Assembly: GCF_000439085.1 (NCBI RefSeq)
Contig: NZ_AUUA01000012.1
Coordinates: 1 to 64,000, forward strand
Length of the DNA stretch: 64,000 bases
Source of the DNA: Leminorella grimontii ATCC 33999 = DSM 5078
Lineage (GTDB): Bacteria > Pseudomonadota > Gammaproteobacteria > Enterobacterales > Enterobacteriaceae
Direction: 5' to 3'
The notes beneath the pieces were generated by a model that worked only from the letters and a program-made list of their open reading frames with translations, ran no database searches and was not told where the DNA came from. Made by a program: the position numbers and the translations under genes. Positions 3,166-58,131 of this stretch are shown here, piece after piece (the first letter of the stretch is position 1; every line of letters starts with the position of its first letter).

Positions 3166-3430
3166 CAACGTCAGTTGCAGGATGCCGCAAAAAGACAGCG
3201 CGTAGTACGCGACGGCTGTTTTCCATGCGACAGGATCCCGGCAGGTCTTCGGGCTTAAGAACATTGATGGCCAACGACTTCCCATTTAATAAACAGTGTC
3301 TGTATCCAGCCGTAGCCGATACGGTCGCCATCGTTCTATTTACCGCTGCGCGTCAGCTCTGGATTTGCACCAGATTCCCTTTTCACGTTGAAGCCTTAAA
3401 GGCTCCATGCAGACCGGAACCACACATGCT
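3166..3430 (-). promoter_or_regulatory. Cobalamin (AdoCbl) riboswitch in the btuB leader
   Basis: The minus strand contains the B12 box AGCCCGAAGACCTGCC (3255-3240). Upstream it carries the conserved core GGGAATCTGGTGCAAATCC, then AGCTGACGCGCAGCGGTAA (roughly 3390-3345), which are signature segments of cobalamin riboswitches. The element lies directly in front of btuB. Binding of adenosylcobalamin would hide the ribosome site and shut off btuB. Outer limits are approximate. Confidence 0.93.
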
Positions 3431-3556
3431 ACAGGCTGTTAATATGGATGTCTAGACTGCTATTTATTGAAAATCCCTTGAAAGGCTAGACATCATCAGG
3501 TCATGCCCTACAATGCCGCCTTAAGATAATTTCAACAGCATCAACCCGAGACGCCG

Positions 3557-44504: not shown

Positions 44505-44753
44505 GAGGGACTCCCGTTTAGGTGAATAAGCGCTGCTATTTATTAGGGTATAACCCAACCGCGCCTATTGCTGCATGAATAGCCGAAATTCTCGGCCAAT
44601 TGCTTTTTAAGAAAAATGAGAATGTGAGTTTCCCATGGGTAGGGGGGCGGTTAGTGGGGGAAATGTGATGGGGTTAACATAAATGGGGGAGTGATTTTTT
44701 GGGAGGGTAATGTGCAGGATTGGAGCACCAACATTATTATTGATAGCCCTATA

Positions 44754-44925
44754 AAATCAGCATTGGTGGATATTCCGACCGAAAACACACTGTGCTTATA
44801 TCACCGCCGTGCTCGGTCGGTAGGGCGCTTTTATTAGCCTTGGGAGTGCGTCGGGCATAGCCTTCCTAGGGGCCCTTCGTTGGCTTACGCCAAGTCGACC
44901 CCAACGGAAGACTCTCCCTCCGATT
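44754..44925 (+). repeat. Dispersed structured intergenic repeat, copy A
   Basis: The first 70 bases resemble the left end of copy B at 56254. A hairpin with stem CCGACCG (44775-44781) / CGGTCGG (44814-44820) has exactly the same spacing as the CCGGCCG / CGGCCGG hairpin of copy B. The later part (44878-44925) is 48 bases identical to 56446-56493, and GCGTCGGGCATAGCCTTCCT is also shared. The copy lies downstream of both the lyase gene (start side) and argG (3' side). Not a recognised enterobacterial ERIC or REP sequence. Confidence 0.85.
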
Positions 44926-44971
44926 AACTCAACAGATCGCTCAGGGCTTACTTCTAGGCATCATCATTATT

Positions 44972-44991
44972 AGGCCGCTCAACGGCGGCCT
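44972..44991. terminator. Hairpin downstream of argG
   Basis: Stem AGGCCGC / GCGGCCT with a TCAACG loop, about 20 bases after the argG stop codon. There is no T-run on the minus strand, so it is a weak terminator or an RNA 3'-end stabiliser. Confidence 0.5.
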
Positions 44992-45007
44992 TAAGTCTAT
45001 AGCGAAA

Positions 45008-46405
<1,398 letters not shown>

Positions 46406-48969: not shown

Positions 48970-49064
48970 TGGCGGAAAGCCACAGGAGTCGAACCTGCCA
49001 AGGACCGCTGGCGGCCCCATCTGGATTTGAAGTCCAGCCGCCCCACCGGGGACGATGACTTTCC
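48970..49064 (-). tRNA. selC: tRNA-Sec (selenocysteine, anticodon TCA)
   Basis: The minus strand gives a 95-base tRNA with the long acceptor and variable arms of selC. It begins GGAAAGTC, has the anticodon loop CTGGACTTCAAATCCAG with TCA, a long variable arm GGGGCCGCCAGCGGTCC, the T-loop GGTTCGACTCC, and ends TTCCGCCA with CCA encoded. It is close to E. coli selC with paired changes in the acceptor stem. selC is a well-known island insertion site, and AT-rich accessory genes lie on its 3' side. Confidence 0.96.
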
Positions 49065-54883: not shown

Positions 54884-56203
54884 ATGACCCAGTACTTTGA
54901 CAAGCTAGACAAGGTTCGCTACGAAGGCACCGCCGGCAAAAATCCGCTGGCCTTTCGCCACTACAACCCGGATGAGCTGATTCTGGGTAAGAGAATGGAA
55001 GACCACCTGCGCTTTGCGGCCTGCTACTGGCACACGTTCTGCTGGAACGGCGCCGACATGTTCGGTACGGGTTCATTCGACCGCCCGTGGCAGAGCAACG
55101 GCGATGCGCTGGAGCGCGCTAAGGCCAAGGCCGACGTGGCGTTTGAGTTTTTCTCAAAGCTGAACGTGCCGTTCTACTGTTTCCACGACATCGACGTGTC
55201 TCCTGAGGGCGGCTCGGTAAAAGAATATTTGAATAATCTGGCCGTCATGACCGACGTGCTGGCGAAAAAGCAGGAAGAGAGCGGCGTGCGCCTGCTGTGG
55301 GGCACCGCTAACTGCTTTACTAACCCACGCTACGCGGCGGGCGCCGCCACCAACCCGAATCCGGACGTCTTCGCCTACGCGGCCACGCAGGTGGTCAGCG
55401 CCATGAAGGCCACCCAGCGCCTGGGCGGTGAAAACTACGTGCTGTGGGGCGGTCGCGAAGGCTACGAAACCCTGCTCAACACCGACCTGCGTCAGGAGCG
55501 CGAGCAGCTGGGCCGCTTCATGCAGATGGTGGTCGAGCACAAGCACAAAATCGGCTTTAACGGCACCCTGCTTATCGAGCCCAAGCCGCAAGAGCCGACC
55601 AAGCACCAGTACGACTACGACGTCGCCACCGTATACGGCTTCCTCAAGCAGTTCGGTCTGGAAAAAGAGGTGAAGGTTAACATCGAAGCTAACCACGCCA
55701 CGCTCGCCGGCCACAGCTTCCATCACGAAATCGCCTCCGCCATCGCGCTGGGCATTTTCGGCTCCGTTGACGCCAACCGCGGCGACGCGCAGCTCGGCTG
55801 GGACACCGACCAGTTCCCGAACAGCGTGGAAGAGAACGCCCTTATCATGTATGAAATCATCAAAGCGGGCGGCTTCACCACCGGCGGCCTGAACTACGAC
55901 GCCAAGGTGCGCCGCCAGAGCGTCGACAAGTATGACCTGTTCTACGGCCACATCGGCGCGATGGACACCATGGCGCTGGCGCTGAAAATCGCTGCCAAGA
56001 TGGTGGAAGACGGCGCGCTGGATCAGAAAATCGCCGAGCGCTACGCGGGCTGGAACGGCAAGCTTGGACAACAAATTCTGGCCGGCGAAAGCTCGCTGGA
56101 GTCGCTGGCCAAGTACGCCGAAAGCAACCAGATCCACCCGCAGCACCCGAGCGGCCAGCAGGAGCTGCTGGAGAATCTGGTGAATCGCTACATTTTTGGT
56201 TAG
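54884..56203 (+). CDS. xylA: Xylose isomerase
   Basis: Converts D-xylose to D-xylulose. 439 residues, as in E. coli. Catalytic and metal-binding regions are visible: the catalytic His in [12 protein letters not shown] (about 100), [16 protein letters not shown] (about 186), [17 protein letters not shown] (about 230) and [17 protein letters not shown] (about 266). AAAGGAAA precedes the ATG. In E. coli xylB follows closely; here a terminator and a 400-base repeat lie between them. Confidence 0.98.
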
Positions 56204-56210
56204 GTTGGTT

Positions 56211-56236
56211 GGGGCCCCTATGTGCCCCTTTTTTTT
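56211..56236 (+). terminator. Intrinsic terminator after xylA
   Basis: Stem GGGGC-N8-GCCCC followed by eight T residues, seven bases after the xylA stop codon. It should largely separate xylA transcription from xylB. Confidence 0.8.
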
Positions 56237-56253
56237 GGTTTGTTGAATAAGCT

Positions 56254-56649
56254 AAATTAGCATTTGTGTATATTCCGGCCGAAAGGACTTCATACCTATA
56301 TTATCGCCGTGCTCGGCCGGAAGAGCGCCTCCTTTTAGCCTGAAGAGCGTCGGGCATAGCCTTCCTACGGGCCGTTATGAAGCCTTTCGGCTTCACCCTA
56401 GCGGGCCAGCGTAAACGCTGTTCAAACCAGCTTGCGCTGGTTTGTCGTTGGCTTACGCCAAGTCGACCCCAACGGAAGACTCTCCCTCCGATTGGCTCCT
56501 CTCATTTATTCAAAAAACCAAATGATTATTTTAAACGGCAGGCTTTGCCTGCCGCGCACCTGAACTCAATACGGGCTGCTTTCCGGCCGAGCACCATGGC
56601 GATATAGGCACAAAGTATTTACGGCCGGAATATACGCAAGAGCTAATTT
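56254..56649 (+). repeat. Dispersed structured intergenic repeat, copy B, with inverted ends
   Basis: About 400 bases between xylA and xylB. The left end (56254-56322) and the right end (56581-56649) are inverted copies of each other at roughly three in four bases. Each forms its own hairpin with stem TTCCGGCCG / CGGCCGGAA. The middle holds a block identical to copy A (56446-56493) and four small perfect hairpins: 56378-56395, 56408-56419, 56424-56443 and 56536-56554. It has no coding capacity. The form is like a non-autonomous mobile element or a composite of palindromic units; I do not recognise the family. Confidence 0.85.
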
Positions 56650-56676
56650 AAAAAACAATATTCTGAAGGACCTACT

Positions 56677-58131
56677 ATGTACATCGGTATCGATCTCGGC
56701 ACCTCCGGCGTAAAGGTTATTCTGCTCGACGAGCATCAGCAGGTGCTTGCCACCCATACGGAGGCGCTGTCCGTTTCGCGCCCTCATCCCCTGTGGTCTG
56801 AGCAAAATCCTCAGGACTGGTGGCAGGCGACCGACCGGGCGATGCTGGCGCTGGGCGCGCAGCGTAGCCTTAAGGCGGTTAAGGCGCTGGGGCTGAGCGG
56901 GCAGATGCACGGCGCGACGCTGCTCGACCAGCATCAAAAGCCGCTCCGCCCCGCTATTTTATGGAACGACGGGCGCTGCGCCGCGCAGTGCGAAGAGCTG
57001 GAACGCCTGGTTCCCAACTCCAGGCAAATCACCGGCAACCTGATGATGCCGGGCTTTACCGCGCCGAAGCTGAAGTGGGTAGAGGAACACGAGCCGGATA
57101 TCTTCCGCGCCGTCGACAAGGTGCTGCTGCCGAAGGACTACCTGCGCCTGCTCATCACCGGCGAGTTCGCCAGCGACATGTCCGATGCGGCAGGCACCCT
57201 ATGGATGGACGTCGGCCAGAGGGACTGGAGCGACGCGCTGCTGAATGCCTGTGGCCTCGATCGTAAGCATATGCCGACGCTGTTTGAAGGCTCTCAGGTA
57301 ACGGGCATGGTCAAAGCCGACGTTGCCGAACGCTGGGGCATCGGCCAGGTGCCGGTCGCCGGCGGCGGTGGGGACAACGCGGCAGGCGCGGTCGGCGTCG
57401 GCCTGTACAAGGCCGGGCAGGCGATGCTGTCGCTCGGTACCTCCGGCGTCTATTTTGCCGTCAGCGACGGCTTCCTGAGCAACCCGGAGAGCGCGGTTCA
57501 CAGCTTCTGCCACGCCCTGCCGAACGCCTGGCACCTGATGTCGGTAATGCTCAGCGCCGCCTCCTGTCTCGACTGGGCCTGTCGGCTGACCAACACCGCC
57601 AGCGTTCCCGCCCTGCTGACGCAGGTGGAGCAGAGCAAGCCCGCCGCTACGCCGGTGTGGTTTCTGCCCTACCTTTCCGGCGAACGCACGCCGCATAACA
57701 ACCCTAACGCCAAGGGCGCCTTCTGGGGTCTGACCCACGAGCACGGCCCGGCAGACTTGGGGCGAGCGGTGCTGGAGGGCGTTAGCTTTGCGCTGGCGGA
57801 CGGCATGGACGTGCTGCACGCCACCGGCCTCAAGCCTGAAAGCGTGACGCTTATCGGCGGCGGCGCGCGTAGCCCCTACTGGCGGCAGATGTTGGCGGAC
57901 GTCAGCGGGCAGGCGCTGGAATATCGCACCGGCGGCGATGTCGGCCCGGCGCTGGGCGCGGCCAGGCTGGCGCAGATTGCAGTTAACCCCAGCATGCCGC
58001 TGGCCGAGTTCTGCCCGCCGCTGCCGCTGGAGCAACGCCACGAACCAAACGCAACCCTTCATGAGGAATACCGGGAAAAGCGCGAGACGTTTCGCAGGCT
58101 TTACCAACAGCTGCTCCCTTTATGTAAGTAA
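56677..58131 (+). CDS. xylB: Xylulokinase
   Basis: Phosphorylates D-xylulose to xylulose 5-phosphate for the pentose-phosphate pathway. FGGY-family kinase of 484 residues: N-terminal MYIGIDLGTSGVKVILLDE, GLSGQMHGATLLD (about 76), LWMDV, VAGGGGDNAAGAVGVG (about 228) and C-terminal FALADGMDVL, LIGGGARSPYWRQMLADV. AAGGA is eight bases before the ATG. Being behind a terminator and a repeat element, it probably has its own promoter in the last part of the xylA-xylB gap. Confidence 0.97.
   Translation: MYIGIDLGTSGVKVILLDEHQQVLATHTEALSVSRPHPLWSEQNPQDWWQATDRAMLALGAQRSLKAVKALGLSGQMHGATLLDQHQKPLRPAILWNDGRCAAQCEELERLVPNSRQITGNLMMPGFTAPKLKWVEEHEPDIFRAVDKVLLPKDYLRLLITGEFASDMSDAAGTLWMDVGQRDWSDALLNACGLDRKHMPTLFEGSQVTGMVKADVAERWGIGQVPVAGGGGDNAAGAVGVGLYKAGQAMLSLGTSGVYFAVSDGFLSNPESAVHSFCHALPNAWHLMSVMLSAASCLDWACRLTNTASVPALLTQVEQSKPAATPVWFLPYLSGERTPHNNPNAKGAFWGLTHEHGPADLGRAVLEGVSFALADGMDVLHATGLKPESVTLIGGGARSPYWRQMLADVSGQALEYRTGGDVGPALGAARLAQIAVNPSMPLAEFCPPLPLEQRHEPNATLHEEYREKRETFRRLYQQLLPLCK

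Follow-up and report, generated by a model that had tools for sequence, protein, structure and literature searches.

Among described repeats the nearest to the one considered here is the Yersinia palindromic sequence of ~168 bp, YPAL or RU-2, whose ends, printed as TTCAGACTGCTGACAAACC ... CTTTGTCAATAACCTCA in Table 1b of PMC2759123, match the ends of the present element. In PMC2229807 the target duplications of YPAL vary from 3 to 26 bp, its targets span or adjoin dyad symmetry, it is listed as without terminal inverted repeats and it might influence transcript stability; ERIC/IRU, RUP and Correia/NEMIS appear there as small non-autonomous elements with folding transcripts, their termini being given as TA. 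A subtype from Y. pestis, YPAL* (model 136), has a published length of 130 bp in a table of PMC2267715. IS1272, of the IS1182 family, targets hairpins by structure, and four gene-near cases lay just downstream; Wan et al. also drew a pathway b (Fig. 13 legend) whose joins, made at the 5' feet, would leave a whole stem-loop duplicated (PMC5678879).

The DNA analysed here, the window, is a 64,000-nt stretch of Leminorella grimontii ATCC 33999 = DSM 5078 (contig NZ_AUUA01000012.1, positions 1 to 64,000), and a dispersed repeat is present in it twice, beside argG (copy A) and between xylA and xylB (copy B). The repeat is of a known, YPAL-like, kind and looks like an undescribed modular variant of it; the literature covered by our search, which took in few subscription papers, gives no account of the large modular form or of a common end for several bodies. 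Our best explanation, to which we give a probability of roughly 0.7, is that it is a non-autonomous YPAL-type mobile element which inserts at the feet of hairpins and whose core would act as a minus-strand RNA within 3' untranslated regions.

Both insertion at dyad symmetry with a duplication of variable length and CAGAYTGnTGACAAA-like sequence at both ends are found in the present family as in YPAL, though the former is not visible at the window copies and the ends of both window copies are degenerate. The bodies differ: an RU-2 query matched 7 of 119 genomes and gave nothing in the window's genome (G000) or in Limnobaculum allomyrinae BWR-B9 (G004), whereas the present element, with hairpin 1 and optional inserts, is 217-356 nt between end motifs in the 24 good-ended copies of these two genomes and of a congener of the window's (G001). 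A flank duplicate score of at least 31, hairpin-like by eye, was reached at 9 of 30 RU-2 loci, a set that had no mismatched-pair control. From ERIC/IRU, RUP and Correia/NEMIS, with their TA termini, the family differs in its ends and in having a hairpin as the duplicated target; ERIC, with its TA duplication and 126-127-bp consensus, was compared by target only, which here is a hairpin, not TA. From REP/BIME with RAYT, as described (GTAG/CGTC-tagged palindromes of 20-40 nt), the present family differs in size and ends, and IS1272 replaces or removes its target hairpin whereas the present family doubles it. An earlier note, made from the letters of the window, had not recognised the repeat as a known ERIC, REP or IS; Rfam has no match for it, but its ends and hairpin targeting match those of YPAL/RU-2.

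The two copies in the window

The features are as follows.

44740..44971, minus strand (the best-folding strand, which is the argG sense strand): copy A, whole element, short form without inserts; ends set by eye against better-ended copies
44740..44749, plus strand: relic of the left end of copy A, TTGATAGCCC (CTGACAAACC in intact copies); weak, 6/9 letters by script
44773..44822, plus strand: hairpin 1 of copy A, the hairpin of the earlier note, TTCCGACCG ... CGGTCGGTA; from the inverted-repeat listing and covariation
44847..44923, minus strand: 77-nt structured core with helices H2, H3, H4 and H5; from model R1 (E=4.7e-21; R1 was itself trained on copy A and 28 others), covariation and strand tests
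44957..44971, minus strand: relic of the right end of copy A, GGCATCATCATTATT (TTTGTCATCAATCTC in intact copies); by eye only, doubtful
44972..44991, minus strand: hairpin AGGCCGC/GCGGCCT between the argG end and copy A; arms 44972-44978/44985-44991
45008..46384, minus strand: open reading frame that, reading its translation, we take to be argG, argininosuccinate synthase
54884..56203, plus strand: open reading frame upstream of copy B, presumably xylA by its translation
56234..56522, plus strand: copy B, entire, including insert A; from its end inverted repeat and its matches to the 172-nt query
56273..56322, plus strand: hairpin 1 of copy B, TTCCGGCCGA ... TCGGCCGGAA; from the inverted-repeat listing
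56377..56444, plus strand: insert A of copy B, ~68 nt, composed of hairpins and interrupting the core; from the gap between two query matches, the length classes and the conservation of the hairpins
56581..56650, minus strand: additional left end with hairpin 1, inverted, next to copy B; 56253-56322 against 56581-56650, 79% complementary
56677..58131, plus strand: open reading frame downstream of copy B, presumably xylB by its translation

The left-end hairpin that the earlier note reported at identical spacing in both copies is where it said: the stem arms are at 44775-44782/44813-44820 in copy A (CCGACCGA/TCGGTCGG) and at 56273-56282/56313-56322 in copy B, 30 nt apart in each. The third stem version, which it had placed at the right end of copy B, turned up in the inverted left-end copy beside it, as TTCCGGCCG/CGGCCGGAA at 56581-56589/56622-56630 with a spacing of 32 nt. 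The span it had given for copy A, 44754-44925, is inside the element and only part of it, with both element ends outside. Congener G001 has the same layout of copy B and extra inverted hairpin 1 between xylA and xylB (L066, the equivalent of 56234-56650). Elsewhere in the window are a cobalamin riboswitch (3223-3433, E=8e-21) and a tRNA-Sec (48974-49064, E=3e-14), both on the minus strand.

Copy B matches the 172-nt query at 56254-56376 and 56445-56493, and its end inverted repeat, TTTGGTTTGTTGAATAA/TTATTCAAAAAACCAAA (56234-56250/56506-56522), stands at 94%. Both ends of copy A are degenerate and the placement of the right one is especially uncertain, the end script having preferred another spot further right with 5/9 letters. 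The hairpin at 44972..44991 is likely the argG terminator, and no second terminator hairpin was seen to the left of copy A. Because the ends of both window copies are worn and neither shows a doubled terminator, we infer the mobility of these two from other copies.

Family, ends and doubled hairpins

With the 172-nt query (44754-44925) 45 BLAST pieces were found in the window's own genome, the best non-self one at E=3.4e-57; the earlier note had proposed such a search and named a lack of further copies as telling against it, and copies are abundant. They are intergenic where inspected, and the family of structured intergenic elements that it envisaged is borne out. What it did not see is that the structured element is a mobile one with terminal inverted repeats and terminator-like hairpins as targets. 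In a sample of 30 genomes, the window's included, matches were present in three, with 38 in G000, 29 in G001 and 44 in G004. Among 67 copies from these three genomes, hairpin 1 and the right anchor are ~119 nt apart, or ~188 nt where insert A is present, and the end motif lies 35 nt beyond the right anchor, or ~95 nt where insert B is present; four copies are intermediate or short (175, 149, 137 and 76 nt). Both inserts are made of small hairpins. Hairpin 1 is carried in the window's genus and in Limnobaculum, and there some copies have the two optional inserts. At three sites whose orthology was judged from the flanks (L001/L069, L053/L023, L007/L026), insert content differs between G000 and G001, and therefore modules seem to be exchanged in place.

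Further to these classes, three Limnobaculum loci (L035, L036, L037) have tandem arrays of three to six hairpin 1 units with a short linker on the left side of the element, and three Limnobaculum copies (L030, L033, L037) are immediately followed by a repeated 7-nt unit (GCCCTTT or GCCCTTA). A truncated copy in the window's genome (L060, G000:C4:23000-23900, minus) adjoins direct repeats, GGTTTATCCCCGC..GCGGGGAAC, which by eye are like those of type I-E CRISPR.

The core extends beyond these genera. With R1, a covariance model of the 77-nt core from 29 copies, matches turned up in 33 of 392 genomes from the bacterial family, which fall in 17 of 154 genera; per-genome counts are lower bounds, with at most 12 candidates scored per genome. 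A short element, 115 nt between end motifs, is present at the fetched loci in the genera of G174, G403, G284 and G231; end to end the unit is 130-131 bp in G231, and this short version in other genera is without hairpin 1. The G403 short element matches plasmids of Yersinia frederiksenii and Serratia proteamaculans at 92.7% (over 124 nt) and 91.5%, and had no match in 20,395 E. coli records; copy A had none among plasmids. YPAL*, at 130 bp, is close in length to the 131-bp G231 element, a likeness of length alone, and may be this short version. The earlier note had also named a match to a catalogued repeat family as counting against its view; the published 130-bp YPAL subtype may be such a match.

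Other arrangements of the same parts were noticed. The core alone is in tandem at L168 (G125) and L163 (G315), with spacings of 105-125 bp and 95 bp, and the same end sequence bounds other interiors at L132, L140, L141, L135, L142, L143 and L146-L148 (G127, G004). In G127, palindromes of ~50 bp that resemble the two ends only come right after terminator-like hairpins (L137:348-398), and the contig ends L129, L130, L134 and L138 of that genome fall within such palindromes.

Better-preserved copies have imperfect terminal inverted repeats, [CG]AGAYTGnTGACAAA. Both ends are recognisable (at least 7/9 letters) in 24 of the 67 copies, the other 43 being without two recognisable ends. Against its reversed control the end pattern, with at most one mismatch, was found 24:6 times in G000 and 25:11 in G001 and, when exact, 36:1 times in G403 and 148:1 in G231.

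For 11 of the 24 good-ended copies the left and right flanks repeat one another with a score above 19, the 99th percentile of 552 mismatched left/right pairs; nine of the 11 score 34-57, where no control pair goes above 26, and all nine repeats look to the eye like whole hairpins. The other 13 do not exceed the control. In the short element a hairpin is present on both sides in 38 of 38 parsed copies (31 from G231, 7 from G403); their flank scores have a median of 42 and never fall below 27, whereas none of 1406 mismatched pairs scores more than 24. These came from 40 short copies fetched by exact ends at the usual spacing (L201 and L211 were not parsed), a choice that favours intact ends, not duplication. 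Across the four genera, the flanks are doubled in three of four short copies (L167, L170, L172) and not in L171 (score 12). The duplicated stretch is 17-32 bp long (median 21) in the 35 of 38 that are measurable, three being without a clean length; in 28 of the 35 its first letter is A and its last T, and in 24 its outermost bases open a self-paired stem of 6 bp or more, the rest having extra flanking letters or imperfect stems. The duplication length thus goes with the hairpin, as expected from cuts made at the feet of a stem-loop. In one G231 locus (L236), two elements of 130-131 bp adjoin with three similar hairpins, as if one terminator had been hit twice.

Might the flanking hairpins instead be unrelated terminators of convergent genes, with no duplication? 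Their setting is what that would lead one to expect, since 24 of the 38 G231/G403 copies lie between convergent open frames (called, as are gene orientations below, by a longest-open-frame heuristic). Yet stem and loop are near-identical on the two sides, no mismatched pair scores as high as the weakest matched one, and the empty site has a single hairpin: at L064 in G001, AAACGGCGGGAAACCGCCGTTT stands on both sides of the element, while the orthologous G000 site (L150) lacks the element and carries such a hairpin once. A second G000 site, L149, is empty relative to L025 of G001. Empty sites were thus found for two of five G001 sites queried in G000, with L021, L028 and L067 giving one flank or separated flanks. 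Chance pairing of unrelated terminators is refuted for the intact copies examined, and we leave it next to no probability in general. Doubled whole hairpins, with a length that follows the hairpin, are an unusually clear case of hairpin-directed insertion.

Covariation and folded strand of the core

The earlier note had noticed one matched G-C to A-T change, and suggested an alignment, a covariance model and covariation statistics. In 29 short-form copies (alignment A1) that pair is GC in 21, AU in 7 and GU in 1, and its neighbour CG in 25 and UA in 4. Over a 39-pair structure 88.2% of cells are paired, 15 pairs have double changes, and the covariation score is 0.170, compared with 0.083 +/- 0.007 when shuffled and at most 0.078 with partners slid; compensatory changes are thus far above both controls, and those that it reported are real. 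Its hairpin 1 does covary, but the strongest signal, which it had not singled out, is in the 77-nt core (44847-44923), where most of the compensatory changes are. Further pair types are not in excess in A1 (31 against 29.4 shuffled, reached by 157 of 500 shuffles). A helix H1b inside hairpin 1 (A1 columns 20-26/40-46) was considered and is unsupported, with 69% of cells paired.

A wider alignment, A5, has 53 distinct cores from 12 lineages (56 matches from 50 sources, for part of the loci fetched, with three identical rows merged), and was fitted to the model, so that it leans towards structure. In it 19 of 24 pairs have double changes. Double-change cells number 210, whereas shuffling gives 64.5 +/- 6.6 and sliding the partners no more than 66; the covariation score is 0.399, compared with 0.123 when shuffled and no more than 0.089 when slid. 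Further pair types again are not in excess (43 against 40.8 shuffled, 118/500). Unpaired core columns 29, 30, 32, 33, 50 and 51 are 96-100% conserved over the 53 cores. Rfam gave no match for the element at gathering thresholds over the window, none at E<=10 over 44700-45010, and none for five relatives. The modelled 77-nt core is a candidate structured RNA, unmatched in Rfam.

If it is an RNA, could it be that of a host regulatory family, a riboswitch or attenuator for instance, that is repeated by chance? A core fold conserved across lineages would suit such an RNA. The bursts of near-identical copies in G231 (148 end-pattern matches against 1), the target duplication and the lack of an Rfam match would not, and we regard it as very improbable.

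As to which strand folds, the earlier note had read the plus strand, and for the core it is apparently the minus that folds. In plus-strand terms the non-Watson-Crick cells of A5 are A.C 59 and G.T 12, U.C 56 and A.G 3, C.C 22 and G.G 2; on the minus strand the majority departures read as G.U (59 vs 12), G.A (56 vs 3) and G.G (22 vs 2). Counted as pair-by-genus events, which are not fully independent, the G.U contrast is 32 vs 10 (p=0.0009); counted by distinct base pairs it is only 12 vs 8 (p=0.50). R1 was built on the plus strand and its bias therefore runs against this result. RNA folding of four cores gave z-scores of -4.2, -4.2, -3.1 and -5.1 for the minus strand, against -0.9, -3.3, -1.5 and -3.4 for the plus. 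GNRA and CUUG are stable loops typical of RNA, and on the minus strand four of the 10 distinct H5 caps are GUAA, GCAA, GUGA or GAAA and one more is CUUG, compared with GNRA in none of 10 on the plus. Hairpin 1 leans the opposite way (G.T 3 and 8 against A.C 0 and 2). For the core the minus strand is favoured; a plus-strand RNA as its main folded species is disfavoured by mismatch polarity, folding z-scores and loops.

Around 20 own-genome copies with 900-nt flanks, to which the tally is limited, the genes to left and right are oriented (-,-) in 8, (+,+) in 6, (+,-) in 4 and (-,+) in 2. Co-transcription with a neighbouring gene was set aside as a general reason for the strand polarity, there being no fixed orientation, with the minus strand often antisense.

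Paired changes can also arise by palindrome-templated repair without selection, and this counts against our best explanation. Pressed further, all of them would arise at the DNA level, by template switching within quasi-palindromes together with gene conversion, and there would be no selection for a fold. The loops of insert A, which by eye flip between copies (TTCG/CGAA, TTT/AAA), the in-place sequence exchange implied by the differing inserts at the three sites orthologous between congeners, and the rarity of cells changed on one side only (3/669, A4) are in keeping with this. It predicts no strand preference, though, whereas the departures above favour the minus strand in all three contrasts, and the strict conservation of the six unpaired columns speaks against it as well; we think it rather unlikely.

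The minus strand might alternatively be structured as single-stranded DNA, an intermediate for a mobilising enzyme in the manner of IS200/IS605, rather than as RNA. Structure is kept regardless of orientation to genes; there is no support for a promoter near copy A, where promoter-like sites are at chance level (1 vs 0.6 expected); and the minus strand folds better with DNA parameters too (two cores tried, z of -2.3 and -1.9 vs -0.9 and -0.1). But the family has inverted-repeat ends and target duplications, which to our knowledge are not expected of that class, its GNRA and CUUG loops point to RNA, and the end-only copies of ~50 bp (L137, G127) suggest movement without the core. Such an intermediate we consider distinctly unlikely.

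A possible route of insertion and its meaning

The non-autonomous, hairpin-foot reading which we prefer calls for an enzyme from elsewhere. No transposase or longer element with these ends was found among the matches listed, with the strict end pattern, in sets of seven and of three genomes, or in a loose end scan of 11 loci. Around unpaired ends in G231, 20 regions of 3.7-7 kb, in which one exact end was required, held nothing transposon-sized: end pairs with duplicated flanks there were 130-131 bp apart, or belonged to the two adjoining elements with a shared hairpin (285 bp, L236); L218, L220 and L231 had no such pair, and L223 and L235 had one only from a neighbouring copy. PF13751, which we take to be the IS1182-type transposase domain, was found in none of the six genomes, other than G231 and G403, that were scanned for it.

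On the preferred reading, a transposase acting in trans would bind the end repeats and join the element ends at the two feet of a target hairpin, probably extruded as a cruciform, and repair would then copy the whole stem-loop, so that the duplication would match the hairpin in length. Where the target is a terminator it would be doubled, and therefore the genes on both sides would keep one and insertion would be cheap. The core would be made as RNA from the minus strand by read-through into a 3' untranslated region. YPAL reportedly, in the original 2006 paper on it, affects the level of upstream transcripts, and the core RNA would most likely affect 3'-end processing or message stability, as reported for YPAL; this is the least certain step. 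The end-only sequences of ~50 bp (L137) suggest that the core is not needed for movement, which would make an effect on the message its likelier role.

A bolder picture, which we offer tentatively and would not back at even odds, is of a transposase in trans that reads extruded hairpins, joins both feet of the cruciform and doubles terminators, and which mobilises a superfamily of unrelated bodies with one end sequence; one of these bodies would be a new minus-strand RNA, often GNRA-capped and with conserved internal loops, present in many genera and acting in 3' untranslated regions or as a mobility cofactor. If that is true, the whole-stem-loop duplication route drawn for IS1272 would operate here at every insertion.

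If YPAL* is a short version of the present family, then only the large modular form is undescribed. The family links several small enterobacterial repeats by one end sequence and one rule, duplication of a whole hairpin, with a length that follows the hairpin and not a fixed stagger. Because G231 has dozens of recent copies, structure-directed transposition, argued from IS1272 in PMC5678879, becomes directly testable, and a doubled terminator would explain the low cost of such elements for their host.
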